Shown in pieces: positions 690 through 30,946 of a stretch of 64,000 nt of DNA (its first letter is position 1; the number at the start of each line of letters is the position of its first letter). The stretch comes from Clostridia bacterium. GTDB taxonomy: Bacteria; Bacillota; Clostridia; Oscillospirales; Acutalibacteraceae. The stretch lies in NCBI GenBank assembly GCA_017537365.1, contig JAFYKZ010000001.1, positions 1 through 64,000 on the forward strand, given 5' to 3'. Under the pieces are notes generated by a model. That model saw only the letters and a list, made by a program, of their open reading frames with translations. It was not told the origin of the DNA and searched no databases. A program made the translations under genes and the position numbers.

Positions 690-718
690 TTGACAAATGT
701 CTTAAAATCAGTTATAAT
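690..718 (+). promoter_or_regulatory. consensus sigma-A promoter of the peptide gene
   Basis: TTGACA at 690-695 and TATAAT at 713-718 are separated by exactly 17 bases, a perfect housekeeping promoter. It lies 28 bases upstream of the small Cys-rich peptide gene at 746. Confidence 0.85.
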
Positions 719-745
719 AAAATAAAAATGAAGGGAGATAAGTTA

Positions 746-850
746 ATGGAAATCATTGTAAAAGCAGAGTTTCTTGATTCAGCTAACTTGTTGTCTCAGG
801 GAGGATGCACCAACTGTGAGAATTGTCCTTGTAGATCCAATGACGTCTAA
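746..850 (+). CDS. Cys-rich RiPP precursor peptide (34 aa)
   Basis: A 34-residue gene too short for routine calling. Its ATG follows AAGGGAGATAAGTTA, a good ribosome site. Residues 1-20 (starting MEIIVKAEFLDS and ending SQGG) look like a leader with a Gly19-Gly20 pair. Residues 21-34 are CTNCENCPCRSNDV, with cysteines at 21, 24, 27 and 29. It sits directly upstream of a radical SAM/SPASM peptide maturase and behind a perfect promoter, the usual layout of sactipeptide or ranthipeptide precursors. I infer that the maturase modifies the Cys-rich core. The product class and bioactivity cannot be read from the sequence. No transporter or leader peptidase gene is adjacent. Confidence 0.75.
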   Translation: MEIIVKAEFLDSANLLSQGGCTNCENCPCRSNDV

Positions 851-883
851 TAGTTGATAGCTTCTATATGCAGTACTCAAACT

Positions 884-934
884 AGGTATCGCGATCGCAA
901 TCAATTCGATTGGATTGCGATACCTATTTCTTTT
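884..934 (+). terminator. hairpin between peptide and maturase genes
   Basis: A long imperfect inverted repeat (arms about 884-902 and 908-925, outer AGGTATCGC/GCGATACCT perfect) is followed by the T-rich stretch ATTTCTTTT. It probably works as a partial terminator, so that the precursor message exceeds the maturase message, as is common in peptide-maturase pairs. Confidence 0.65.
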
Positions 935-962
935 ATAATTAATTGATGATTGGAGATATTAA

Positions 963-2234
963 ATGAAATTCAAGCAATCTAAATACAATGTTCATATCGA
1001 GCATCAAGGCAACAAATATGTGTTTAACACATTCTCAAATGGATTTTGTAAACTAAACGACGATACATATGAAAACTTAATACATGATACTCCGCAAAAC
1101 ACTCAATTTCTTGACACGTTAGTACGTGAAGGTTATGCCGTACCGGTAGCAGTCGATGAAACAAATAAATTGTTTGTGGAACGTTTATCATATCAGTATG
1201 GCAAGGGACGTAGTATGCAGTTTTTGATCGTACCGTCTTTAAAATGCAATCTAAAATGTATTTATTGTTATCAGCGAGATGTGTCATATAATCACTGTGT
1301 AATAACACCTGAAATGGTTGAAGACAGTATAAAGTTTATTGAAAATACACTTGAAAAGAATCCGTATGTCAATAAATTAAAACTTAATTGGTTTGGTGGT
1401 GAACCACTTCTTAATTTTGAAATAATTAAAAAGTATACCGAGCATTTTATTAAATACTGTGCAGAAAAGAACATCGAGTATTCCGCAAATATGACTACGA
1501 ACGGATTGTTGCTCACTAAAGATGTTGCTGATTACATGTATAAAACTGGTTTGAAAACACTTCAGGTTACGATAGATGGAACTGAAGATTTCTATATTGC
1601 ATATAAAAAAGGTAAACCAGGAGATCTTAATAAACTAATTGAAAATGTAAAGTATGCAGCTTTATTTTTTGATATTAATGTAAGATTTAATACTAGTGCA
1701 GAAAACAGAGAAAGCATTTTGGAAATTGCAGAAATCCTTTCGAGAAGTGTTTGTATGGATAAAGTTCAGATGTATCCTGCGAAGATTTATGGATGTGAAG
1801 GCTACGATACTCTAACTTGTTTGACTGATGAAGAATTTGATGAGTTCAACCGTGTATTTTGTGAAAAGTTTAAAGCATACAATTTCGATGTTGAATATTC
1901 AAGAGTTTCGGCACGATTGTCGTATTGTGGTAGTTTAAGAAAAGACTATGCAATTATTGGTCCCGATGGTTATCTTTATAGATGCGAACATCAAATCGGT
2001 AAAGAAAGTGAAATCATCGGTGATGTGAAATATGGTTTCTATCGCAATGAAGCCGATATGAAGTTCTTAAATATGCCGTATCCGGACGAATGTATAGAAT
2101 GTAATCTTTTGCCGTATTGTTTTGGCGGTTGTCCATCAGATAGAATCTGCGAAAAGAAAAAATTCGACTGTGATGCATTTAGGAAAAAGTTTATGTCATG
2201 GGTAGTTAAAAAACATTTAGATTCTATCTGTTAA
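963..2234 (+). CDS. radical SAM/SPASM peptide maturase
   Basis: 423 residues. The N-terminal 80 residues form a small domain typical of peptide maturases, possibly recognising the leader. The radical SAM core carries CNLKCIYC (Cys95, Cys99, Cys102) for the AdoMet 4Fe-4S cluster, followed by a WFGGEPLL motif. The C-terminal SPASM region is Cys-rich (about residues 320-415: SYCGS, RCEHQ, CIECNLLPYCFGGCPS), expected to bind auxiliary iron-sulfur clusters. Such enzymes install thioether or other carbon-centred crosslinks in ribosomally made peptides. The obvious substrate is the 34-residue Cys-rich peptide encoded upstream. Family membership is clear; substrate and chemistry are inferred. Confidence 0.88.
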   Translation: MKFKQSKYNVHIEHQGNKYVFNTFSNGFCKLNDDTYENLIHDTPQNTQFLDTLVREGYAVPVAVDETNKLFVERLSYQYGKGRSMQFLIVPSLKCNLKCIYCYQRDVSYNHCVITPEMVEDSIKFIENTLEKNPYVNKLKLNWFGGEPLLNFEIIKKYTEHFIKYCAEKNIEYSANMTTNGLLLTKDVADYMYKTGLKTLQVTIDGTEDFYIAYKKGKPGDLNKLIENVKYAALFFDINVRFNTSAENRESILEIAEILSRSVCMDKVQMYPAKIYGCEGYDTLTCLTDEEFDEFNRVFCEKFKAYNFDVEYSRVSARLSYCGSLRKDYAIIGPDGYLYRCEHQIGKESEIIGDVKYGFYRNEADMKFLNMPYPDECIECNLLPYCFGGCPSDRICEKKKFDCDAFRKKFMSWVVKKHLDSIC

Positions 2235-3774: not shown

Positions 3775-3887
3775 CGGTATAGTTGCATTTCCGGTTTTAA
3801 TAAATTGTTCAAACAGTTTTAATATTTTACAAAAGAACGAGAAAGACGTTAAAAACAACAAAACGTTTTAAGAGGATGAAGTTAAGT

Positions 3888-4460
3888 ATGGCGATAATAG
3901 GTGCTTTAATAGGACTGTGTGTTTTAATTAATTTAATAACATTTTTGGCGAGTAAATATCAATGTGTAAAATACGATAGAAAAGTGAAAAAAGAAAGAAA
4001 ACGTCTGAAAGAATGGGAACAAAACAAGGAAAAAGAAAGAAAACTTAAAATTGTAAAATACCCTTTCGATAAAGCATTAGATAGTTTACTTGAAGATTTT
4101 TTTGAGTTTGAAGACGAATATTTTAAATACTTTCACGGAGATACCGCAGACTATGTAAGATTAAGTACTATTATAAAGGAAGACGACTATGGTAGAGATT
4201 GTGCTTATATTGAGTTATGGGTGTTGCTTTCGGATTGGTGGGATTCTATACCTAACTACAAATCAGAGTTATCTTTGATGTGCAGTTTCACTCAAGAAGA
4301 TGATCGTATATTTTATAAGTTAATAAAGATAGGTGAAAATTTAAATTATACGGAATCCTATGAAATTCTTGATAATTATATGTTATCACGAGCGAATAAG
4401 TTAAATCAAAGGGGTTTCACGAAAGAAAAAGGCATTTATGGATATAAAAGAGATAAATGA
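3888..4460 (+). CDS. membrane-anchored member of a three-gene paralogue family
   Basis: An N-terminal hydrophobic helix (IIGALIGLCVLINLITFL) is followed by a Lys/Glu-rich linker and a soluble domain. That domain has FDKALDSLLEDFFEFEDEYFKYF and a WVLLSDWWDS motif. The same order, a helix ending in FFEF followed by an aromatic DWW-type motif, recurs in the next two genes, so the three are tandem duplicates. An ATG at 3876 is in frame but touches the AGAGG ribosome site, so I prefer the ATG at 3888. Function is unknown; immunity or stress proteins often duplicate in this way beside peptide loci. Confidence 0.6.
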   Translation: MAIIGALIGLCVLINLITFLASKYQCVKYDRKVKKERKRLKEWEQNKEKERKLKIVKYPFDKALDSLLEDFFEFEDEYFKYFHGDTADYVRLSTIIKEDDYGRDCAYIELWVLLSDWWDSIPNYKSELSLMCSFTQEDDRIFYKLIKIGENLNYTESYEILDNYMLSRANKLNQRGFTKEKGIYGYKRDK

Positions 4461-4500
4461 AGATTTTTAAATTTAGAGTGAATGAGGATGAGACTGTTTT

Positions 4501-5001
4501 ATGGGATTATTTAATTTTAAAAAGAAAAAAGCTTCATCATTAACTAATAAAATAGTTGATGAGCGTGCAGAAGAAAAAATTTTCGATTTTGAACAGGCTT
4601 TGTTTAATGTTCTAGATGTGTTTTTTGAGTTTAAAAAAGCTTATGGAAAAAGAGGAAATGCTCATTTGTCTATATTACTAGAATCAACTCAGCAAAATTA
4701 TAGTGATACATTTTATACTAAAGATTATTTTTTGCAAATGACAGTTTGGGTTTCGGACTGGTGGGAAAATTGTATGGCGTTACAGCAAGAAACTTTTGAT
4801 ACCTTTGAGGCTATTTACAATGAGCGTCCCGATGAACTAACGTTTATATATAATGGTGTAGGGGTTGGGACCACAACATGTAGATCTATTTCTTGGGATA
4901 AAGTTATTCAAAGATTGCATCAGTATTTAGACAAATATGAAAAAGAGCACCCCGGAGTTTGTTTTGAAAAAGGCACTGGCGGTGCACATTTGATATTATA
5001 G
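4501..5001 (+). CDS. second member of the paralogue family, soluble
   Basis: 166 residues without a membrane helix. After a short basic N-terminus (MGLFNFKKKK) it has FDFEQALFNVLDVFFEFKKAYG and MTVWVSDWWENC, matching the preceding gene in order and spacing. The last third ends in a helix LHQYLDKYEKEHPG that is also seen in the next gene. No known catalytic motif is visible. The stop codon TAG at 4999-5001 shares its last base with a possible GTG start of the next gene. The function is not recognised. Confidence 0.6.
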   Translation: MGLFNFKKKKASSLTNKIVDERAEEKIFDFEQALFNVLDVFFEFKKAYGKRGNAHLSILLESTQQNYSDTFYTKDYFLQMTVWVSDWWENCMALQQETFDTFEAIYNERPDELTFIYNGVGVGTTTCRSISWDKVIQRLHQYLDKYEKEHPGVCFEKGTGGAHLIL

Positions 5002-5021
5002 TGAAAGATGGTTTAAATAAT

Positions 5022-5534
5022 ATGTTTAATTGGTTAAAAAAGGACTCTAAGCAAAAACATTCCAAAAATTATTTTGAAGATAATAAAAAACAACAAATAT
5101 ATAATCCGTATGGTTTATTTGCTGATGTTTTAGATAATACATTAAAATTTATTGATGCGTATCTCGAAGAGATGCCCAACGAATGGCTACTTATGTTTAT
5201 CAACAAAATTCCCAGTAAGGTAACAAAACATACTCCAGACTATTGGTGCTATGAAGAATTTATCGAGATTAAGATTGCGGTTGGTTGCTGGTATGATGGA
5301 ATTCTTTACAAAAATAAAGATCTCGAAGATTATATGCTAACAATATATGAATTTGATCCGGAAGAAAAGGAGTTTATTTATAAAATTCGAATTGCTGAGA
5401 GTACGAACTGTATAATTGATAGGGATATATTAGTAAAAAAGTTGTTCGAATACTTAGATGCCTATGAAAAAAGCCATCCTGAACGAAAACTTAAAAGAAC
5501 AGAATGTGGCGTTCACCATGAATGGAATTTGTAG
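5022..5534 (+). CDS. third member of the paralogue family, soluble
   Basis: 170 residues from the ATG at 5022. A GTG at 5001 is in frame, but starting at 5022 gives the N-terminus MFNWLKKDSK, which aligns with MGLFNFKKKK of the preceding paralogue. The shared features are FADVLDNTLKFIDAYLEEM, VGCWYDGI in place of the DWW motif, and LFEYLDAYEKSHPERK near the C-terminus. The protein is predicted to be cytoplasmic. The three copies differ greatly in sequence, so the duplication is old or selection for diversity is strong. Confidence 0.6.
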   Translation: MFNWLKKDSKQKHSKNYFEDNKKQQIYNPYGLFADVLDNTLKFIDAYLEEMPNEWLLMFINKIPSKVTKHTPDYWCYEEFIEIKIAVGCWYDGILYKNKDLEDYMLTIYEFDPEEKEFIYKIRIAESTNCIIDRDILVKKLFEYLDAYEKSHPERKLKRTECGVHHEWNL

Positions 5535-5875: not shown

Positions 5876-6475
5876 TTATTTTAATGATATATCTCCCTTT
5901 AGAGAATATTCCGCCACTCTTTTTAATTCCTCAAGAACACGTTTGATTGCCGCTTCGCTTTTCCACCAAGTGTCAGGTCCGATGTTTTTACCTTTTTTAT
6001 CTACCGTGCCGTAAAAGTCAATTGATTCTGCGGGATATCCGCAAGCGGATGCGCACATCTTGGCGCGTCGGCTCATAAAAGCTCTACCTATGCACAAGAT
6101 GCCATTGAATTCTTCTAATGGTTTTATCTGTTCAGCTATGGGCTTACTGAATTCGAAGTTTTCTAATGCATTTGTTGCTTTTGTTTCTAAAATAAAGATT
6201 TCTTTTGGTACACCCATATCAACAACTGCATTGAAAAGTCGAATAGCTTCGGGTTCTTTTCCTTGGTTTAGCAATCCTACATTGCCGCTTAAAATGACTG
6301 TGGATTTTGAAGTAACACGCCCTTTATCCCAAAGAAATTTTATTGCATTAGCGTTGCCTTCAATATCGTCGTTCCCAAGAAAGATTACTAACTCATATGT
6401 CTTTAGGTCTGACTCTTCTTTGCCAATGAAAAGGAATTTGGTTATTGCGTTAATTGTTTCACTATTTTTAAGCAA
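5876..6475 (-). CDS. YdcF-like (DUF218) protein
   Basis: 199 residues. The fold signature of the YdcF/SanA/ElyC family is visible: YELVIFLGNDD at the start, then VILSGNVGLLNQGKEPEA with an acidic residue after the glycine-rich strand, ILETKATNALENFEFS (the conserved ET..T.EN stretch), and ILCIGRAFMSRRA. Family members are thought to bind a nucleotide or AdoMet-like ligand, and some act in envelope stress. There is no membrane helix here. Its start lies inside the 3' end of the NACHT gene (34-base overlap), which implies translational coupling and a joint role. The biochemical role is not established. Confidence 0.75.
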   Translation of the reverse strand: MLKNSETINAITKFLFIGKEESDLKTYELVIFLGNDDIEGNANAIKFLWDKGRVTSKSTVILSGNVGLLNQGKEPEAIRLFNAVVDMGVPKEIFILETKATNALENFEFSKPIAEQIKPLEEFNGILCIGRAFMSRRAKMCASACGYPAESIDFYGTVDKKGKNIGPDTWWKSEAAIKRVLEELKRVAEYSLKGDISLK

Positions 6476-9288
6476 TTTTCACTCATCCTACTTTCATAGT
6501 TATTGAATTTTTCTTTGCAATTGGGATTTAGAGATAATTCAAGACATTTCATATCACAATAAATATAAATTGGATGTGTTTTGTCTATAGTATCAAATTC
6601 CGGATCATCAAGAAGAGACATAACTTTCTCATATACAACTTCTAATTTAACATCTTCATCAAATCGATACTTTAGCATAATTAAACTTAGAAAATTGTCA
6701 CTTTCTGATTTGAAAAGTCTATAAGCTTCATCGTGTTCCTGCTTATATAACGCAATTCTTCCTCTCAAATAGTTTAGAGAACCCGTATATAGACTGCTAA
6801 TCTTTGTCAGTATATAGTCAGCAAATAAATAAGATGCCGTACTGATAGTCATGGGATTTCTAGAACCTTTAACCACTGTTGAAGGTTCGATATCAGATGT
6901 ATTAGGAATATAATAATCGTCAAAAATCTCAACTGTTCCGCTCAATAAAAGCGAAACGATCTGTCTTGCGGTATATAGAATTTCTGTATTAGTATATCCT
7001 GTCTGTTCTTTTGAAAAATATGAAACCATTAATTTATTTGTAAAGATGGTTTCATAATAAAGCCAAAAAGATTCTACAGGATTATAATATTTTTGACATA
7101 CGTCAAAAATAAAAGGAGATGGTTTAGAATAAATTAACCCTAAAAGGTTGGTAGAAAGATTAAAATTGTTTTTAGCAGGCTCTATAATTGCATCCATTCC
7201 GGTAATAAACAGTTCTTCAAAGTGCTTATAACAGTTTGGAATATGAGATTTTATTTCATGGTTGTTCTTACGTGCTTGATATTCAAACAGTAGTAGCTTT
7301 GCCTTGTGATGTTGAACGTGATCGTTTTTGGGCAAAACTTCTTCGGCCATTTTGATTAGTTCGAAAGCTTCTTCATATAGAGCTTCTCTTCTATAATACT
7401 CACATTCCTTGCAAATAACATTTGCAAGGGCATTTTCATAATAAGGGCGAACTTTCTCCGGTAAAGCCTGGAATTTTTTCACCAAACGATTTCCTTTATG
7501 GTATTTGTAGCACAAATCAATCGCCTTGTTTAGTATGCCGTGAATGGATTCTTTAATTTCATCAAACGGAATTGCTAAATAATCAGATATAAAAAATGCA
7601 GCGTGAGCAACCGCTATCTTTTTGAATAACGCTTCATTGTCTGTGCAAGAAAGATATGCAGAAAAATATTTATCAATATCATATATCATTTTTCCATCTT
7701 GCAGTTTGGATTTTAAAACTTCTTTAGTTAACGTTGAAATGTCATTTGAAAAATTAAAATTTATTTTAAAATTGTCAAAACGGACATCTTCATTATATAT
7801 TTCATTGATTAATTTGAGTTTATTTATATTACCATAAGCAACTAAAAAATCTCTTAGATCATCATGATAGAACTTGAAATAATTAGAAGAACTGTCTTGC
7901 GCTAAAAGTCCGCCACTAAGTAAAATTCTAAAAATTTGTTCAGGATCCTTCTTGTAAGTTAAAAGGCCATAACGATCTTGGATATCGTCTCTTAAAACGA
8001 TATTAAGTAAAAAATCTAAATATTGATTATTGGTAATCTCATTCTCGATTATCTCTTTTATACTGGAATCTTTGATGGTTGTACCGGATGTTTCACAAAT
8101 AAATTGAGCAATAATCGGTGCGATTACATAATACGAAAAATATACAGCAATTGCAAATTCTGACGATTGGTTTTGCAAAGTTAATTTATTATAAAGATTA
8201 TATAAAACATCATACTTAGTTTTAAATTGTAAAATATCATCTGTAGAAGATAGATGATTAAAATATAAAGGGATTTTAGCGAGATCTTTAACGCTATCGT
8301 CTATGTTAGGGTGTTTTGCCAAAAAATCATCGTATACCGTAGACGGCACACCACTTAAAAACGTTTGGCTATAATTAGCGATCAGACTATTAACTTTAGA
8401 TGGTCGGCTTGTAATAATAATACACGCATTATCCCACTCTTTTTCTATTTCCTTAACGCTGTTTTCTATAAATCTTATGACCGACTTATTTGCAACAGAA
8501 TAAACCTCATTAAGCCCGTCCAATAAAATCAGGACGGGTTTTTCGTTATTATTGACGGAAATGAAAAAATCGTTGATATCTATATTTTCGTTTTGAGAAA
8601 GATACAAAGCTATATAATTTTGAACTTCCTCGGTGATTTTAGTGGTTAATATGTTTTCTGTGAACGCCGTTAAATCACTTAAGGATATTTTTATAACATA
8701 AGAAAAACATCCTGCGCTTTTTGCTATGCTAAACAGTTTATTAATAAACAAGGACTTCCCTTGACCGCCAATGCCCTCTACCAATATGTGTTTATGGTTT
8801 ATCAGTTTAGAAAAATCGGTATTAGGAGAAGTTGATAAAGTAATAATTTCTTCTTTATTCAAATTTAGATAAATGGATTGCTCAAAATAATTTTCTTTTT
8901 TCGATTCCAATGAAGGAGTGTATGATTTTACTACGGTTGGTTTTGAGGTATAGCAATCAACAAGCTTGGCTTTCAGAAAAGAAATAAAAAATGTTTTAAA
9001 ATCACCATGAGCGCGCAGACTAGAAGGTATCCGCACGCCTTTGTCTTCTATGTAGAATAAAAAGTTATTAAATAATTCATTATTATTTTGAAAAAAAGTA
9101 TCAAAAATATCTGAATGGGATATACCGCATCTCAAGTCTTTAGGAAGCCCCTTATTGACCCAGTTGTTTATAGTGCGAATATCAACCCCAAATTTATCAC
9201 TTAAGGCTTGTTGGTTAGAACAAAGTCCCATGTCATTCAAAAATTCATACAGCAACCGAAAAGATGTCGCTTTTTCTTTGTTAGCCAC
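6442..9288 (-). CDS. HTH-NACHT ATPase with helical-repeat C-terminus
   Basis: 948 residues from a GTG start with GGAGGTG six bases upstream. Residues 15-50 look like a helix-turn-helix (NQQALSDKFGVDIRTINNW). A NACHT/STAND ATPase follows with Walker A GIGGQGKS (about residues 171-178), Walker B VLILLDGLNE (about 250-260) and a CIIITSRPS sensor strand. The C-terminal half is alpha-helical and TPR-like (EYYRREALYEEAFELIKMAEE), a likely ligand or partner sensor. NACHT proteins of this build act as switch ATPases, many in phage defence. Defence is an inference from family and setting, because no effector nuclease, TIR or protease domain is evident. The gene overlaps the YdcF-like gene and may use it as partner. 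Confidence 0.8.
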   Translation of the reverse strand: MANKEKATSFRLLYEFLNDMGLCSNQQALSDKFGVDIRTINNWVNKGLPKDLRCGISHSDIFDTFFQNNNELFNNFLFYIEDKGVRIPSSLRAHGDFKTFFISFLKAKLVDCYTSKPTVVKSYTPSLESKKENYFEQSIYLNLNKEEIITLSTSPNTDFSKLINHKHILVEGIGGQGKSLFINKLFSIAKSAGCFSYVIKISLSDLTAFTENILTTKITEEVQNYIALYLSQNENIDINDFFISVNNNEKPVLILLDGLNEVYSVANKSVIRFIENSVKEIEKEWDNACIIITSRPSKVNSLIANYSQTFLSGVPSTVYDDFLAKHPNIDDSVKDLAKIPLYFNHLSSTDDILQFKTKYDVLYNLYNKLTLQNQSSEFAIAVYFSYYVIAPIIAQFICETSGTTIKDSSIKEIIENEITNNQYLDFLLNIVLRDDIQDRYGLLTYKKDPEQIFRILLSGGLLAQDSSSNYFKFYHDDLRDFLVAYGNINKLKLINEIYNEDVRFDNFKINFNFSNDISTLTKEVLKSKLQDGKMIYDIDKYFSAYLSCTDNEALFKKIAVAHAAFFISDYLAIPFDEIKESIHGILNKAIDLCYKYHKGNRLVKKFQALPEKVRPYYENALANVICKECEYYRREALYEEAFELIKMAEEVLPKNDHVQHHKAKLLLFEYQARKNNHEIKSHIPNCYKHFEELFITGMDAIIEPAKNNFNLSTNLLGLIYSKPSPFIFDVCQKYYNPVESFWLYYETIFTNKLMVSYFSKEQTGYTNTEILYTARQIVSLLLSGTVEIFDDYYIPNTSDIEPSTVVKGSRNPMTISTASYLFADYILTKISSLYTGSLNYLRGRIALYKQEHDEAYRLFKSESDNFLSLIMLKYRFDEDVKLEVVYEKVMSLLDDPEFDTIDKTHPIYIYCDMKCLELSLNPNCKEKFNNYESRMSENCLKIVKQLTQ

Positions 9289-12145: not shown

Positions 12146-13351
12146 ATGAAAAGGAAAAGCATTGTCTTAGTAATTATTATGATGATTGCATTATTGATGA
12201 ACACCTTAACCGGTTGTAGTTCAAATAATACCGCAACGTCAAGTGCGATTTCTTTGGTTTTAGGCAATCACGAGTATTTTCCTAAAATCAACTTGCGCGC
12301 AGAAAGTGTTTACCAAAAGATTTATGACGCAGTTTATTCCTATGGTGATTGTTCCATAGTTGTAGTAGACGGGAATCCTTATGTTGCTGCTTCGTATAAC
12401 ATAACCAAGCCAGATGCAAATATAGATAATGCGAAGAGAAAACAGATTTCCAAGCAAAACACCGAACAGATTATCGCAGATGGAAGTAACGCATTTGCAA
12501 AAACATCTGAAATTGATACTCTTTCGGCAATCGTTGCATCTTCTGCATTGTTGAAAAGTTCTCCCGCTGAAGTAAAAGAGATGTTGGTTTATGACAGTGG
12601 TTTTTCAACAACTGGTTTACTTGATTTTAGTAGTGAGAACTTGATTGAAGTAGAACCCTACTTGATTGTTGAACGTCTTTCTGAACTTCACGCTTTACCA
12701 GAACTTAATGGAATCAGAATTATTTGGACCGGGTTAGGAGAAGTGTGCGATGAGCAAGACAAATTAAGCTCAACCTATAAGTACAATCTTAAGAATATTT
12801 GGAGAGAGGTAATTATTGCTGCAGGTGGCGAGATTGAGTTTATCGACGTACCTTTGTCGGCAACACCTAAAAGTGAAGAACTCCCCTCATGTAAGACAAT
12901 TCCCATCATCCAAGATACGCTTGAGTTATCAGGGAATATTGCAAAACCTATTAAATTTGGTGAAGACACAATAAAATTTTTAGGAGACCAGGCTGTATAT
13001 GTAAACGCTGGAGACGCGAAAAAAGCATTGGAGCCTATTGCAACATTTCTTAAGGAGAATGCAACTAAGCGTATTTTGATTGTTGGTACTACTGCATCTG
13101 CCGGTAAGGAGTCATCCTGCTTGAGTTTGTCATTAAACCGTGCAAACACATGTAAAAAAACGCTCATTGAAATGGGCGTAATGGAATGTCAAATTGAGAC
13201 ATTAGGACTGGGACGCAAAGTGTGCTTTCTAAGAGTGAACGATCTTGATGTGAACGGGAAATTGATCCAAAGCCTTGCCTCTCAAAATAGGGCTGTATAT
13301 ATTTTTGATCTAGATAGTGAAGAGGCTAAACAAGTGATAAAGATTAGTTAA
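12146..13351 (+). CDS. lipoprotein with OmpA-like C-terminal domain
   Basis: 401 residues. The signal peptide MKRKSIVLVIIMMIALLMN ends in a lipobox LTGCSS, so Cys24 should be lipidated and the protein held on the outer face of the membrane. The middle has two alternating strand-helix units (EVKEMLVYDSGFSTTGLLDFS, GIRIIWTGLGEVCDEQDKLS) recalling a von Willebrand A or Rossmann fold. The last 110 residues resemble an OmpA/MotB domain: ATFLKENATKRILIVGTT, LSLNRANTCKKTLIEMG, IETLGLGRK. OmpA-like domains bind peptidoglycan. One on a Gram-positive lipoprotein next to a four-helix membrane protein suggests anchoring of a membrane complex to the wall. Confidence 0.65.
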   Translation: MKRKSIVLVIIMMIALLMNTLTGCSSNNTATSSAISLVLGNHEYFPKINLRAESVYQKIYDAVYSYGDCSIVVVDGNPYVAASYNITKPDANIDNAKRKQISKQNTEQIIADGSNAFAKTSEIDTLSAIVASSALLKSSPAEVKEMLVYDSGFSTTGLLDFSSENLIEVEPYLIVERLSELHALPELNGIRIIWTGLGEVCDEQDKLSSTYKYNLKNIWREVIIAAGGEIEFIDVPLSATPKSEELPSCKTIPIIQDTLELSGNIAKPIKFGEDTIKFLGDQAVYVNAGDAKKALEPIATFLKENATKRILIVGTTASAGKESSCLSLSLNRANTCKKTLIEMGVMECQIETLGLGRKVCFLRVNDLDVNGKLIQSLASQNRAVYIFDLDSEEAKQVIKIS

Positions 13352-13385
13352 TATATATGGATTTTGTATAGGAGAGTGAAAAAGT

Positions 13386-14084
13386 ATGATTGATTCGAGA
13401 TATGGTTTTGGAAACTTTAAGGTAGGAGAATCGAATCTAACTGCCTTTTCTAAAAGTAGAGAAATTTGCCAATTGCCCGATTCACACTGTGGGATGTGGA
13501 TGTTTGGACCGTCAGGGTGCGGTAAGACACATCTGCTAAAGGCGATTTATAATGAATTTAACTATCGAGAAGATCGAATGATTGGAATATATATTTCTGC
13601 TAAAGAATTGGCAGAATTATTGTATGATTTTCTCGGTGGCGGAACAAACCTTTGGGTGCATATAAAAACCTACGATTTTCTTCTTATTGATAATGCAGAG
13701 GATTTACTTGGAAGACCTAAAACACAAGAAATGATTACTGAATTGATAACGGAAATGTGTGCGAACAAAAAATTGGTTTTTTTGACATCCATTTGTCCCC
13801 CCTGCAAATTGCGGAATTTAGATAGAGTGTTACAATCGCATAAGTTCAGCATTCCAATTGTTGAAATTCAATCGCCTGATTATAACCTAAAGAAGTCTAT
13901 TGTAGAGAATTACATATTTGAGAATTCTATCAACATATCAGACGAAGCGTGTGAGCTTCTAATTACTACGTCTAACCACATTTATCGTCTCAAGGGTGTC
14001 TTATTTTTGGTAAAACACCTCTTTGAAACACAAGGCATTTGTATCGAAAAAGAATGGATTAAGCGGCATGTATCGTGGTTGTAA
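13386..14084 (+). CDS. DnaA-like AAA+ ATPase without DNA-binding domain
   Basis: 232 residues after a GGAGAGTGAAAAAGT ribosome site. It starts with YGFGNFKVGESN, like the start of DnaA domain III (F-x-x-F-x-x-G-x-x-N). Walker A is GPSGCGKTH (about residues 37-45), followed by the DnaA-type strands IGIYISAKELAELL and YDFLLIDNAEDLLG (Walker B). The C-terminal HTH of DnaA is absent, so the length matches Hda or DnaC-like helper ATPases. It may load or regulate another factor of the element. A second DnaA-like ATPase occurs at 28512 in this window. Confidence 0.75.
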   Translation: MIDSRYGFGNFKVGESNLTAFSKSREICQLPDSHCGMWMFGPSGCGKTHLLKAIYNEFNYREDRMIGIYISAKELAELLYDFLGGGTNLWVHIKTYDFLLIDNAEDLLGRPKTQEMITELITEMCANKKLVFLTSICPPCKLRNLDRVLQSHKFSIPIVEIQSPDYNLKKSIVENYIFENSINISDEACELLITTSNHIYRLKGVLFLVKHLFETQGICIEKEWIKRHVSWL

Positions 14085-14147
14085 AACAGTGTTATTATAT
14101 TTTGATTTAGCACAAAAAGCGATATGTTATGAAAAAGCATAGAACTC

Positions 14148-14189
14148 TTAATTCCCGTTCTATTTTCGTGTTTATTTCATATTTAATTC
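14148..14189. promoter_or_regulatory. repeated TTATTTC-type motif, possible operator
   Basis: TTAATTC, TATTTTC, TTATTTC and TTAATTC end at 14154, 14167, 14178 and 14189, the last three exactly 11 bases apart. They lie upstream of a TAAAAT-type -10 region and the GTG-started ATPase gene at 14271. The array resembles the one at 9310-9339, including the preceding AACTCTTA. Confidence 0.4.
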
Positions 14190-14270
14190 GTAACACCAAC
14201 CATTAAAAGCTGATAAAATTAAATCAGAGAAAAACATTAATATTAGTTTAGAAAGAAAGGAGGCGTAGTT

Positions 14271-15806
14271 GTGGAAAACACAGATACTTTAATTTCTGCT
14301 ATCGAAGACGACATCCAATTAAGCGAAGACGATGTGATGTTGTTGGATGAGAATGTAAAAAATTTAGAAAAATTAGAAACGATGATTTGTTCTGAAGCTG
14401 TGATAAATGCAAGCATTGAACAAGTCAAACAAAAAAACGCAATACCTTTTACATATAGAAATAGAAAATGCAATTTAATTATCTCAAAAGAAACAAAAAT
14501 TATAGATGACCAACAAAGCAATAGAATTTACGCCTTATTTCGTCATTTTGAAGATGCTTTTGATAAAGAATCTAACGCTATAATTGAGTGCGAATGCGAT
14601 TATGTGCTGAGCGAAAAAGACGGATTATTATTTGATGGAATGCCTATAAACAAGAAAGCACGTAGAGTTGAAACATTCTGCAGATTGTTACCGTCGCAAC
14701 GCGAATATATACGAATCAAAAGCACAATGCCAAAGCAAAGTCGTGCTGGATATAGTAGCCCGATTATAGATGAGGATTCTTTGATTATGCTTTTTGAGAT
14801 ATGTGGAGAAACATATCCTCCAGACGTGCAGATTCAAGCAGAGTTAATTATAAAAGAGCTGCGTGAAGCTCATTTTTCGCAAACTAAATTTGACCTTATA
14901 AAAAGGCTGTCCTATTTATTGAATGGTCAATTAAACAAACAACACGTTCGTAAAATCTCGTATGACGAAATAATAAGAATATTTGATAAACGAATCTATG
15001 GAATGAAACCGATAAAACGAGTTATTGCCGAGCGTATCATGTTATTGCAAAGGACAGGCAAGGTACTATCGGGAGTTCTCATTGAGGGAAATCCTGGAGT
15101 TGGCAAAAGTTCATTTGCTGAAAGTATGGCTGAATGTTACGGACTACCGTTAGATAAGATTAATTGTGATGGTGCGGACCCGTTGGTGCTTAAAGGTTTA
15201 TTCAGTTCATGGGCTGGAGCAAAGCCAGGTGAACCCGCCAGATTGATCTATCAAAGAGGAACCGATCATGTAGTATTGCTAATTGAAGAAATAGATAAAT
15301 TATCTACGCACGATGCAAAGGGCGATTTATATTCTGTTTTAAACACAATGTTGGCAGATAAAACATTACATGATGAATTTGTCGGCGCAGACATGCCTAT
15401 TAATAACTGTATCATTGTTGCCACCTGCAATGATCTTGATAAAATACCAGGATATATCAAAGACCGTTTTTCTTTGATATTCAAGGCAAGTGATTTGTCG
15501 GTATCTGAAAAGGTGGTTGTCGGACGGGATTATATTATCCCAGAATTATTTAAGGAAAACCAAATTGGGCAAGATGAACTGGTTATTGATGATGAGATCC
15601 TTGAATTTATCGCCAAAAGGTACTGTGATGATTTTGGAGCCAGGAACATGAAATCGTGTATAGAAACAATAATGTGCTCTGTCGTTTCTGACCAGTCAAG
15701 AGGAATAATCGCTGACCAATTTAAGGTGACTCAAGCTTTTGTAATTGAAAGATTAGACGATATTATGGGCAAAGACAAGAAAATAGGAATGGGGTTTGCA
15801 CCATAA
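14271..15806 (+). CDS. Lon-type AAA+ ATPase lacking the protease domain
   Basis: 511 residues from a GTG start with AAAGGAGGCG upstream. The N-terminal 240 residues are an unknown helical region. Then comes a Lon-like ATPase: YDEIIRIFDKRIYGMKPIKRVI before Walker A GNPGVGKS (Lys279), Walker B VLLIEEID (about 335-342), an arginine-containing NDLDKIPGYIKDRF stretch, and the lid FGARNMKSCIE. Real Lon continues into a Ser-Lys protease domain; this protein ends soon after the lid. The next gene, 17 bases away, encodes a membrane protein with an HExxH motif, so the pair could be a split ATP-dependent membrane protease. That is inference. Confidence 0.78.
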   Translation: MENTDTLISAIEDDIQLSEDDVMLLDENVKNLEKLETMICSEAVINASIEQVKQKNAIPFTYRNRKCNLIISKETKIIDDQQSNRIYALFRHFEDAFDKESNAIIECECDYVLSEKDGLLFDGMPINKKARRVETFCRLLPSQREYIRIKSTMPKQSRAGYSSPIIDEDSLIMLFEICGETYPPDVQIQAELIIKELREAHFSQTKFDLIKRLSYLLNGQLNKQHVRKISYDEIIRIFDKRIYGMKPIKRVIAERIMLLQRTGKVLSGVLIEGNPGVGKSSFAESMAECYGLPLDKINCDGADPLVLKGLFSSWAGAKPGEPARLIYQRGTDHVVLLIEEIDKLSTHDAKGDLYSVLNTMLADKTLHDEFVGADMPINNCIIVATCNDLDKIPGYIKDRFSLIFKASDLSVSEKVVVGRDYIIPELFKENQIGQDELVIDDEILEFIAKRYCDDFGARNMKSCIETIMCSVVSDQSRGIIADQFKVTQAFVIERLDDIMGKDKKIGMGFAP

Positions 15807-27127: not shown

Positions 27128-28495
27128 ATGTTTGACGATATTTCACGCTTCACATCTTTTATGCCACCTTATACGATTGCGCGAAACAAACAACTTAAGT
27201 ATTTATTCCTTGAAATAACTATGAAATGTAATATGTGTTGTGAACATTGCGGTTCAAACTGTTCTTCGGAAACTGATTATTCTGAATTGACCACTGAACA
27301 ATGGAAACAGTTCATTTTGTCTATTGGTGAGCAATTTGATAGTAATCGTTTGGTGCTTTGCATTACAGGTGGCGAACCACTTCTTCATCCTGATTTTTTT
27401 GACATTGTTAAAACGATAAAAAAAGCTGGTTTTAGATGGGGGTTGACAACTAATGGTCTAATGATAAAAGATTCCGATTATGTTAAAGAATTATATTTAT
27501 CGGGAATGAAAACAATCTCGCTTTCTATAGATGGATTGAAGGATACTCACGATACGTTTAGAGGTATGATAGGTGCTTATGATAAAACAATGGCAGCAAT
27601 CAAGCTGTTTTATGAGCGCAGTAAACATGCTCATGTTCAAGTTACAACTACTGTCAGCAAGAAAAATATCGCCGAACTTGAAGAATTATATTTAGAACTC
27701 AAAAACAATGGAGTAAGAGATTGGCGTATTGCGAGTGTTGATCCAATTGGCAGAGCTGAAACCGCGGCGGATTTGCTTTTGGATGAGGACGACTACAGTA
27801 AGTTGTTTTCATTCATTTCTGAGTTGCGCAAGGAAAACGAAATTAACGTCACATATGGATGTGCGCATTATATTCCTGATTCTTTTAGATACAACTTAAG
27901 AGATATGCCGTACAAATGTGGGGCCGGTGAGTTTGTAGCCTCAGTTTTATGTAACGGAGATATTTATTCTTGCATTGATATTGAGCGACGCCCTGAACTT
28001 GTTCAAGGTAATGTTTTGAAAGATGATTTTTTGCAAGTGTGGGAAAAAGGATTCAAACCATTCAAAGGAACAGAACGGATTAAAAAAAGTCCTAAATGTT
28101 CGAATTGTGGTAACGCTCCTCTTTGTAATGGTGATAGCGCACACACGTGGGACTATGATAAATGCGAACCTAAAATTTGCCTATACGAATTAATGAGAAA
28201 ACGCAAATATTCTGAACTAGGTAGATGTGGTAATTGCGGCAACTATTTAGAAGATGACGCAGCTTACTGTGAGACTTGTGGAACAAAACGCGGAGATGGT
28301 GCGTTTGAACACTTTGATTTCAATGATGAAATGTTTCAGACCCTATATGGTCCTCCTCCGATGAACTACCGATTCGAATGTAATGAGTGCGGTTCACAAT
28401 GGAACAGAGTGTTAATGAGTACCGGATCAGTTAAATATTGTCCTGGTTGTGGTAGTTCTAAAATCAAAAATACATTTGAAGAATCTATGTGGTAA
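27128..28495 (+). CDS. radical SAM/SPASM protein with C-terminal zinc ribbons
   Basis: 455 residues. CNMCCEHC gives Cys34, Cys38 and Cys41 for the AdoMet cluster, followed by ITGGEPLLHPDF, TTNGL and ISLSIDGL, typical of the MoaA/PqqE group. A SPASM-like region has CGAGE, CNGDIYSCIDI and CSNCGNAPLC. After residue 365 come two zinc-ribbon units (CGNCGNYLEDDAAYCETCG and FECNECGSQW with YCPGCGSS), an unusual tail. Catalysis on a peptide or protein is likely. No precursor peptide is visible beside it, so the substrate may be a full protein, perhaps one encoded next to it. Confidence 0.82.
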   Translation: MFDDISRFTSFMPPYTIARNKQLKYLFLEITMKCNMCCEHCGSNCSSETDYSELTTEQWKQFILSIGEQFDSNRLVLCITGGEPLLHPDFFDIVKTIKKAGFRWGLTTNGLMIKDSDYVKELYLSGMKTISLSIDGLKDTHDTFRGMIGAYDKTMAAIKLFYERSKHAHVQVTTTVSKKNIAELEELYLELKNNGVRDWRIASVDPIGRAETAADLLLDEDDYSKLFSFISELRKENEINVTYGCAHYIPDSFRYNLRDMPYKCGAGEFVASVLCNGDIYSCIDIERRPELVQGNVLKDDFLQVWEKGFKPFKGTERIKKSPKCSNCGNAPLCNGDSAHTWDYDKCEPKICLYELMRKRKYSELGRCGNCGNYLEDDAAYCETCGTKRGDGAFEHFDFNDEMFQTLYGPPPMNYRFECNECGSQWNRVLMSTGSVKYCPGCGSSKIKNTFEESMW

Positions 28496-28511
28496 GACGG
28501 TATATATTATT

Positions 28512-29678
28512 ATGGAATTTTACAAATACAAAGATGAACTCAGTAAAATGACTTTTGAAAATTTTATTTGTGATCAATCAAATGAAGAATCCTATAAAAA
28601 ACTTTATTTGTTATCAACCTCTTTTCCTTTCTCTGACAATCGGATTGTTTTACAAGGGCCAAGAAAATCAGGTAAATCTCATCTTATTACAGCTTTACTT
28701 AATAGTGTTCATGAAAGTAATCCTTCTTTGAAAATCCAAAGAACCAACGGCGAAGATTTCGTGAGTCATATACTTTTCGAGCATCACAGCAAATCACTTG
28801 GATTCACTAACACTTCTGCAGAGAGATATATCGACAAACTATTGAGTAACAATGTGGTTATAATAGAAGATATTAACTATGTTGACAAACAACTCGCCGA
28901 AGAATGCTTAACAAAAAAGATGTTTTGCGAATTGTTAGATAAATGGGATTTCAAAAACAAATTGTTGGTTTTTACCATCGATGAGTCATATGAAGGAAGA
29001 ATTACAGATGATGACGTGCTTGATCGACTCGCAGCGTTTGAAAAACTCTTTATAGGCAAACAAAACAAACAATCGGTACACATGCTTTTTGCATCGTGGG
29101 GTTTTGACAGTCCGTTAATGAGAACAAAATTTTCAAGGATAATTCCACAAAATGATTCTTTATTTGAAAAAACTTGTTTTATACTTCCTTATGCCGGATT
29201 TGATTTTGAAGCGACATACAAACAAGAAAAAGAATATCTTGTTGAATTTGGGTTTGACCCCGATAAAATAAACATGGTAGATTGTAACTTTAATAGCACA
29301 TCAAAAGCTCCAGATTATATTTACGTTCCCGGTGGCGACCCTTTCAAGTTGCTAAAAACCTTAATCGATATGGATATGCTTGATGTGATTAAAAAATGCA
29401 TTTTTGAAAAAGGAACTGTTTATATAGGCATATCAGCTGGAGCATATCTTGCAAGCAAAAGTATTGACTATGTAACGCAACTTGAAGATAATAATATTAT
29501 AACTAATAATATTTTTGATTCTTTAGGCTTAATTAAGGAGTGTTTAATTTGTCATTATGAGCATTATTCATACACAACACTTAAAATTTGTGAAGAAATT
29601 ATCGGAACAGTTTCAATGGCAATTAGAGACGATCAACTACTAATGTGGGAAAACGAAAAATGGTCATATATTGAATAG
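28512..29678 (+). CDS. DnaA-like ATPase fused to an S51 (dipeptidase E-like) peptidase
   Basis: 388 residues from the ATG at 28512. Residues 1-210 are a DnaA/DnaC-like AAA+ part: MTFENFICDQSN, Walker A GPRKSGKS (49-56) and Walker B VVIIEDINYV (about 117-126). Residues 215-388 match the S51 family: an ILPYAGFDF strand, YVPGGDPFKLL, the nucleophile elbow GISAGA with Ser308, HY with His348, and a final IRDDQLLMW strand. S51 enzymes cleave Asp-X dipeptides or cyanophycin-like chains. Joining it to an AAA+ ATPase is odd. The gene is 16 bases after the radical SAM gene and 20 before the GyrB-like gene. Confidence 0.78.
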   Translation: MEFYKYKDELSKMTFENFICDQSNEESYKKLYLLSTSFPFSDNRIVLQGPRKSGKSHLITALLNSVHESNPSLKIQRTNGEDFVSHILFEHHSKSLGFTNTSAERYIDKLLSNNVVIIEDINYVDKQLAEECLTKKMFCELLDKWDFKNKLLVFTIDESYEGRITDDDVLDRLAAFEKLFIGKQNKQSVHMLFASWGFDSPLMRTKFSRIIPQNDSLFEKTCFILPYAGFDFEATYKQEKEYLVEFGFDPDKINMVDCNFNSTSKAPDYIYVPGGDPFKLLKTLIDMDMLDVIKKCIFEKGTVYIGISAGAYLASKSIDYVTQLEDNNIITNNIFDSLGLIKECLICHYEHYSYTTLKICEEIIGTVSMAIRDDQLLMWENEKWSYIE

Positions 29679-29698: not shown

Positions 29699-30946
29699 AT
29701 GAAACACGACAATAACACAATTTTTATACTAAAGGGACCCGACAGAGTGCGAAAAAGACCGGCTGTTACGTTTGGCTCAGATGATACGGAAGGCGTTATC
29801 TCAGTTATCAAGACTTTACTCGATATTTTTGTTACTGAAGCCGCACTTGGTTATTCTTCGGGTATTGATGTGAACATTCACGCAGATGATTCGATTAGTG
29901 TTCGAAGCTATGATAGAGGCTTCATTCTTGATGAAACAATTATTGATGGCAAGCCTGCGTGGTATCAAGACTTTTGTGAATTATACTGTGGCCCACGTAA
30001 ACTTGACGAGAAATACTATTTTAGTTTAGGGGTCCATCATAATGATTTGTATGGACAAGTAGAAACCCCTATGCCTAAGTACCAGGTAGATACTGACCAT
30101 GGATTTGACCTGTGTTGTGTCCAATATGTATCGAAGTTTATGCATGTAGAAGCGACACGAAACGGCACCAAAAAGGTACTTGATTTTGAAAAAGGATATA
30201 GTGTCTCCGATTTGCGTAAGGAACCTTCAGCAGAGCCTACAAGCACATTTATTCATTTTTTGATTGACTCAGATGTTTTTAGAGATATAAATTTCCCTGT
30301 ATCTGAAATTGTGGATTTTTTGAGAAATGTAGCAATTACAATTCCCGGAGTAAAATGCGGAATTAGTGATGAACGAAACAACCTTTCGACTACGTTCTTA
30401 TATCCAAATGGTACAGAAGATTACGTTTCTAATATTTCAAGTACCATTCCTTTACCACTATTCACAAACGAAATGGAGGCAAAAGGAAAAGATCGATACA
30501 ACTATCGAGAATACGACGCAAAGGTTAAGATCGTTTTTGGGTTTGTGAAAGATTTTACAAATACACTCTGTTTGCACAATTACAGAAAATTAGAGTGTGG
30601 AGGATATCATCTTGATGCAGTTAAGGAACGGTTGCTTCACTATATTAACTGGGAGTTCATCTGGGATTTTAGAGATGATTCAAGTTCTAACGATGAGGAC
30701 AACTATTATTCTCGGAGACGATTTGAATTATCGTTTGATGATATAAAGGAAAATATCGTTTTGATAATAGAAACGAACTGCACTAAATATGCTTCCGATT
30801 ATGTGAACGCAACAAAAAAATCAATTAAAAATCGAATGATAGCTGATATGGCATATGATTTAATATCCGACGACTTCGGCCATTATTTAAAACAAAATCA
30901 CGATGCGATTTTCTCTATATTAAAAAAGTGTCAAGATAAAAAATAA
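29699..30946 (+). CDS. GyrB-like protein with degenerate ATP site
   Basis: 415 residues. The alignment with the GyrB ATPase and transducer domains is clear by eye: VRKRPAVTFGS for VRKRPGMYIGD, GVISVIKTLLDIFVTEAALG for the helix with E42 and N46, VNIHADDSISVRSYDRG for the D73 region, and later FVKDFTNTLCLHNY with GGYHLDAVKERL. At the places of E42, N46 and D73 of E. coli GyrB stand Thr39, Ile43 and Ser, and the glycine-rich ATP lid is LGVHHND. ATP binding and hydrolysis are therefore probably lost. The TOPRIM domain is absent. It may be a binding or decoy protein; the role is unknown. Confidence 0.78.
   Translation: MKHDNNTIFILKGPDRVRKRPAVTFGSDDTEGVISVIKTLLDIFVTEAALGYSSGIDVNIHADDSISVRSYDRGFILDETIIDGKPAWYQDFCELYCGPRKLDEKYYFSLGVHHNDLYGQVETPMPKYQVDTDHGFDLCCVQYVSKFMHVEATRNGTKKVLDFEKGYSVSDLRKEPSAEPTSTFIHFLIDSDVFRDINFPVSEIVDFLRNVAITIPGVKCGISDERNNLSTTFLYPNGTEDYVSNISSTIPLPLFTNEMEAKGKDRYNYREYDAKVKIVFGFVKDFTNTLCLHNYRKLECGGYHLDAVKERLLHYINWEFIWDFRDDSSSNDEDNYYSRRRFELSFDDIKENIVLIIETNCTKYASDYVNATKKSIKNRMIADMAYDLISDDFGHYLKQNHDAIFSILKKCQDKK

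Follow-up and report, generated by a model that had tools for sequence, protein, structure and literature searches.

Does a 34-codon cysteine-rich gene standing just ahead of a radical SAM gene encode the substrate of that enzyme, and if so, what might the two genes make? We followed this question in the first 64,000 nucleotides (hereafter the window) of contig JAFYKZ010000001.1 from a Clostridia bacterium (GCA_017537365.1), where an original prediction, made from the DNA alone, had proposed a ribosomally synthesized and post-translationally modified peptide (RiPP) and its maturase. Judged from sequence, this gene pair on the forward strand is very likely a real, rare peptide natural-product cassette, of which two close loci are known. 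Because the pair is shared, its domain architecture is recognizable, small cysteine-rich open reading frames (ORFs) are enriched beside related maturases, and the cut-offs of the NCBIfam maturase families listed are missed, we assign it as a predicted precursor and maturase of a new family within a known kind, rare in the searched data.

The peptide gene, its maturase, and a second locus

The peptide gene (746..850, stop included) encodes the 34-residue MEIIVKAEFLDSANLLSQGGCTNCENCPCRSNDV, begins 8 bases downstream of the ribosome binding site AAGGGAG (731..737, from sequence), and is followed on the same strand by the 423-residue maturase gene (963..2234). Within the peptide, Gly19-Gly20 stands immediately N-terminal to C21xxC24xxC27xC29, giving a putative leader of residues 1–20 (746..805) and a putative core, CTNCENCPCRSNDV (806..847). 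The original prediction had described exactly this arrangement, a well-initiated small gene with Gly-Gly before a CxxCxxCxC core and a radical SAM/SPASM gene next to it, and its view that the core is unfamiliar and the product may be new agrees with the absence of any NCBIfam or Pfam match to the peptide and of the core letters from the literature searched. An alternative ATG at 680 would give a 56-residue peptide ORF; we rejected it because it sits 5' of the promoter and the longest ORF at the second locus is exactly 34 residues.

Both its domains and its family matches place the maturase among radical SAM/SPASM enzymes of the sequence class serving Cys-rich RiPPs. Its [4Fe-4S]/SAM binding motif, CNLKCIYC (1245..1268), follows the CxxxCxxC pattern, with C95, C99, and C102 invariant in 62 of 62 alignment rows and PF04055 matching at 52.1 bits (cut-off 29.5). 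The SPASM cysteines (1926..2171; TIGR04085 at 44.5 bits, cut-off 27) include C322, C341, C377, C380, and C386, invariant across the same rows, as well as C390 and C403, present in at least 90%. They are arranged as Cx2Cx5Cx3C, with C403 after 12 residues; the excerpted text of PMC5682303 gives 14–18 residues for this last spacing elsewhere. The original prediction had proposed structure prediction of peptide plus maturase as a check; for the maturase this yielded a model with an N-terminal domain resembling a RiPP recognition element (RRE; 963..1211), through which leader binding is plausible, then a radical SAM core and a SPASM domain, with CteB and TigE as the nearest structures.

A second copy of the pair came from an alignment-based scan with one genome per species, in which at least 591 stretches matched, 430 were confirmed, and the best 80 loci were kept. 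This locus, L093, lies on a contig of a Coriobacteriaceae metagenome-assembled genome (RUG13402, where we take RUG to denote rumen genomes), and its maturase is 67% identical to that of the window over residues 1–421, whereas none of the other 79 loci exceeds 32% in its best segment. At 3804–3908, 5' of the L093 maturase, is the likewise 34-residue MEIIVAAEYLDSDNLLAQGGCTNCENCPCRSNDI, so the search for peptide homologues beside maturase homologues that had been suggested did recover the same pair, and an adjacent, conserved precursor is present at two loci only (746–850 and L093:3804–3908). This recurrence indicates that the layout in the window is more than chance. The two peptides differ at four of the first 18 residues and one of the last 16; from Gly-Gly onward 15 of 16 residues are identical, and in the core 13 of 14, the remaining one changing from V to I. 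At the codon level, five of 34 are replaced and 14 silently changed (one and eight in the last 16), while the maturases differ by replacement at 141 of 423 codons and at 317 of 423 third positions. Since the L093 stretch has 65% GC and the window 35%, L093 is not misbinned window DNA. The L093 pair is surrounded by acetyltransferase, sulfatase-type, and HAD-hydrolase genes, with an Rce1-like membrane protease gene ending about 128 bases 5' of the peptide, and in the window the maturase is followed by an ORF with Sel1 repeats and by a trio of distant paralogues, with one more ORF between; because these flanks differ, the common unit is the two genes.

Family placement, relatives, and distribution

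Of the six NCBIfam families that the window maturase matches best, four (TIGR04463, Clo7bot, CefB, and PapB) carry names that refer to Cys-rich or ranthipeptide targets; Clo7bot peptides are Cys-rich per annotation, and the geopeptide family has targets of this sort as well. Among the best 25 of 64 matches the enzyme nonetheless falls under every peptide-maturase cut-off, including CefB (135.5 bits, cut-off 600), geopeptide (134, 400), and FlmE/OhkG (133.6, 500), and the L093 maturase does likewise in its 15 matches. TIGR04463, a family with C-rich targets, is the best match of both enzymes (169 bits for the window and 177.1 for L093), but membership was rejected at 169 against a cut-off of 525.

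Individual known systems share some features with the pair and differ in others. Like the Clo7bot locus L011, the window has a KxSKYN-type N-terminal start and Cys-rich peptide coding ahead of the maturase; the annotated L011 peptides, however, have MKFI-K/R-x-P starts and form an array, whereas the window holds a single MEIIVKAEFL peptide, and the TIGR04334 match of 148.7 bits is far from its cut-off of 600. CteB, the SCIFF maturase, is the closest solved structure by sequence and tied closest by fold, yet it is only 19–22% identical to the window maturase over fold alignments. The peptide has four Cys in 34 residues rather than the six in forty-five of SCIFF and belongs to none of the NCBIfam families, and with TIGR03974 at 86.5 bits (cut-off 425) a SCIFF ranthipeptide assignment was rejected. 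TigE (8vpo), tied best by fold and the best match to the RRE-like domain, is 16% identical over its fold alignment and acts on a different substrate with cyclopropyl chemistry. The PapB family (NF047865) matches as a radical SAM/SPASM enzyme at 120.9 bits, under its cut-off of 340; CX3E and CX3D occur once each in the window core, whereas PapA carries six CX3D/E motifs according to the excerpted text of PMC9413430.

In a 62-row tree, the window and L093 form a pair (support 100/100, stem 1.08) whose neighbors are L094 (99/88) and then L006 (97/73). L094 encodes an MIEMMVNANVQ..CC.. peptide with an AAGGAGG ribosome site 13 bases 3' of the maturase stop and a second peptide, MIEMLVMAAAS..C.., and L006 has a 27-residue ORF with a ribosome site just 3' of its maturase that ends in DCCDDCDWGID; no ORF of this sort was recognized at L151, the fifth row of the group (84/93), which has a very long branch. 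The start of the window leader resembles MESIVKGTFL of L005 (0.0002 in within-leader shuffles, scored as the better of two offsets and uncorrected) and the L094 peptides (0.004 for the first and 0.03 for the second), with 0.16 for L006. Q104 is common to the window and L093 maturases, in contrast to the E of 57 of the 60 others; Y211 and K215, which these two also share with L006 and L094, correspond to H in 57/60 and R in 56/60.

The layout was also compared with its surroundings across the 80 loci by counting ORFs with an ATG, a Shine-Dalgarno-like motif, 25–80 residues, and at least three and at least 6% Cys, a rule chosen after a looser ORF listing had been viewed. Within 500 bases of the maturase there were 31 such ORFs at 25 of 80 loci on the same strand and three at three loci on the opposite strand, compared with 17 at 13 loci and seven at six loci 1.5–3.5 kb away (264 kb each). 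The rates per 10 kb (3.8 and 0.37 near, 0.64 and 0.27 away) amount to an enrichment of about six-fold or more beside related maturases, in loci that are mutually related and hence not independent trials. L093 is among the 25 positive loci; the other 55 have no qualifying ORF.

Several relatives carry arrangements of their own. L168 and L184 each have, upstream of a single maturase, an array of some five small ORFs that are rich in Cys and resemble one another, of MKWIEKPE-type and of MxWLVxP-type with DAGCPWLCY. A second likely precursor/radical SAM pair occurs in the genome of the window itself at L002 (C19), where MKAYLEIVELKNDIITTSGEEECCDYGCPTDGDQMEGIW at 1122–1241 precedes a 457-residue radical SAM enzyme at 1375–2748 (TIGR04463 at 132 bits, cut-off 525). 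L009 (PQ520162.1, labelled Enterococcus phage IME_EF3) is a 2.8 kb unverified record with a Cys-rich peptide, a radical SAM gene, and an ORF that by eye resembles an IS200-type transposase; its radical SAM protein groups with Peptostreptococcaceae in the tree, and the record is possibly bacterial DNA.

Beyond L093, close relatives were scarce. Single-sequence scans of genome and viral contig collections found no relative, the alignment-based viral contig scan kept 80 loci with none above 35% identity, and DNA patterns for leader and core gave no hits in viral contigs. As a query against overlapping sets of whole genomes, 61 for the genus (E 1e-40), 398 for the family (1e-35), and 394, 391, and 398 for the order, class, and phylum (1e-45 each), the window maturase matched 0, 1, 0, 2, and 3 genomes beyond its own at 29–32% identity, and the L093 maturase, searched in 140 genomes of its own family, matched itself and five others at 27–31%. 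Plasmid and phage records held no maturase match of at least 60% and no peptide match at E 1. A plasmid origin is unsupported, as 12 kb of window DNA and the protein of the upstream gene match no plasmid record.

Expression, chemistry, and function of the predicted product

A sigma-70 type promoter, TTGACA-17-TATAAT, precedes the peptide gene at 690..718 on the plus strand and matches the consensus at 12 of 12 positions; since the pattern occurs at seven sites in total, fewer than the average of 9.8 in shuffled sequence, the evidence for it lies solely in the perfect match and the location. Between the two genes lies an RNA hairpin of 19 pairs and one bulge followed by a U-rich stretch (883..926, plus strand). 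The fold of 870–945 has −27.8 kcal/mol (z −7.6, equaled by 0/200 shuffles) and that of 848–962 has z −4.8 (1/200), while L093:3912–4000 folds at −47.7 kcal/mol (z −4.5, 0/200); over the whole intergenic stretch z is −5.2 in the window and −5.9 in L093. The L093 hairpin (3933–3977) takes the same position with unrelated stem sequences, and of 14 loci where a small Cys-rich ORF, possibly spurious in some cases, precedes the maturase, seven show z of at most −3, the window and L093 included. Judging by these folds, both hairpins are likely attenuators between precursor and maturase.

We consider it probable that these parts form a self-contained two-gene RiPP cassette with a thioether-forming maturase, a reading supported by the pair, order, and hairpin position common to the window and the distant L093. 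A strong promoter would transcribe the 34-residue precursor, and the hairpin would probably let only part of the transcripts continue into the maturase, leaving precursor in excess. The leader (about residues 1–20) may bind the RRE-like domain by strand pairing and so present CTNCENCPCRSNDV to the radical SAM site. By analogy with the family, an acceptor residue would then lose hydrogen to a 5'-deoxyadenosyl radical, and the sulfur of a Cys, assisted by the SPASM clusters, would close one or more thioether rings, with C21-E25, C29-D33, and N26-C29 as candidate pairs. Leader removal and export, if any, would fall to proteins encoded outside the two genes. A point that the Gly-Gly of the original prediction might imply, processing by a C39-type peptidase, looks doubtful. 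Peptidase_C39 (PF03412) had no match in the window's own genome (98.19% complete), whereas the same search was positive in 8 of 14 control genomes. The excerpted text of PMC10885120 places hydrophobic residues at −4, −7, and −12 in leaders of peptidase-containing ABC transporters (PCATs); with a cut after G20 these positions are S17, N14, and F9, so −4 and −7 are not hydrophobic. Gly-Gly is therefore probably not a standard C39 site and more likely a hinge or the site of another protease.

What the product does is a separate matter from how it is made. An antibacterial RiPP, or bacteriocin, carried on a mobile island would be compatible with the crosslink chemistry, and both the absence of the maturase from all 60 other genomes of the genus sample at E 1e-40 and the pair in a distant genome, which points to horizontal transfer, would fit it. 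We regard this as doubtful: no immunity or exporter gene was recognized as common to the window and L093 loci, the window's own genome gave no C39 peptidase match, and the core is not diversified between the two. Peptides presumed antibacterial do not usually keep their core nearly unchanged between genomes this distant, and the conservation seen here suggests a product whose exact structure is important (a signal, cofactor, or metal ligand) over a fast-changing bacteriocin. The more specific proposal, in which the unchanged CTNCENCPCRSND core would be the scaffold of such a conserved peptide cofactor, signal, or metal ligand and not of a bacteriocin, spread by a mobile Clostridia/Coriobacteriia cassette with an undescribed ring pattern, is speculative.

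Thioether crosslinking of the core, by sactipeptide or ranthipeptide chemistry alike, appears the likeliest modification by analogy. The excerpted texts describe PapB forming a link within CX3D/E between Cys and Asp or Glu (PMC9413430) and NxxcA with Cys23 linked to Asn20 (PMC8326336); spacings that fit these linkages occur at C21-E25 (CX3E), C29-D33 (CX3D), and N26-C29 (NxxC). Across five peptides (window, L005, L006, and both of L094), CX3[DE] occurred six times against 3.78 in shuffles (p 0.146). We therefore rejected this spacing as proof of PapB-type chemistry. The lack of enrichment also weighs against thioether formation, as does the tie of TigE with CteB by fold and the TigE match to the RRE-like part, and binding of a metal or cluster would be compatible with the CxxCxxCxC spacing. 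The maturase might accordingly perform epimerization, C-C, C-O, or cyclopropyl chemistry and leave the cysteines free for metal or disulfides; we find this unlikely, given that the names of at least four of the six top-scoring families refer to Cys-rich or thioether peptides and that Cys-rich ORFs are enriched beside related maturases. It is very improbable that the 34-codon ORF is instead a small regulatory ORF 5' of the hairpin beside a real maturase, even though it precedes a strong hairpin as leader ORFs of attenuators also do, because residues rather than codons are kept between 35% and 65% GC (14 silent against five replaced, and eight against one from Gly-Gly), the two hairpins differ in sequence, and at several related loci longer Cys-rich peptides flank the maturase on one side or the other.

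Genomic surroundings and significance

The first base of the window is also base 1 of contig 24, in a genome of 1.72 Mb, so that the left flank ends there; an ORF at 3–608, 5' of the promoter, has weak sigma-factor matches. A comparison of PGK with 13 other genomes, which narrows the taxonomy, gave 65–73% identity for 11 of them and 49% and 53% for the other two. Three adjacent proteins of 166–194 residues (3876–5534) lack a Pfam match over cut-off and are distantly paralogous to one another, with E values of 1e-5 and 1e-13 in two pairwise comparisons. A 948-residue NACHT-domain protein on the minus strand (6442–9288), without a PADLOC match, adjoins a DUF218 protein (5876–6475), and at 12146–15806 an OmpA-domain protein, a DnaA-type ATPase, and an AAA protein occur consecutively, with weak PADLOC matches. 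Another radical SAM/SPASM protein (27128–28495), with C-terminal zinc-ribbon matches and TIGR04133 at 276 bits (cut-off 425), is followed by an ORF with DnaA-type ATPase and peptidase S51 matches (28449–29678) and then by one with a GyrB-domain match (29699–30946).

The predicted cassette adds a precursor/maturase family missed by the models tried, its peptide having no Pfam or NCBIfam match. As a small system of 34 residues, four Cys, and two genes, it should be feasible to reconstitute directly in E. coli, and its conserved core would offer a clean test of whether, in anaerobes, Cys peptides of the radical SAM kind can act as signals or cofactors.
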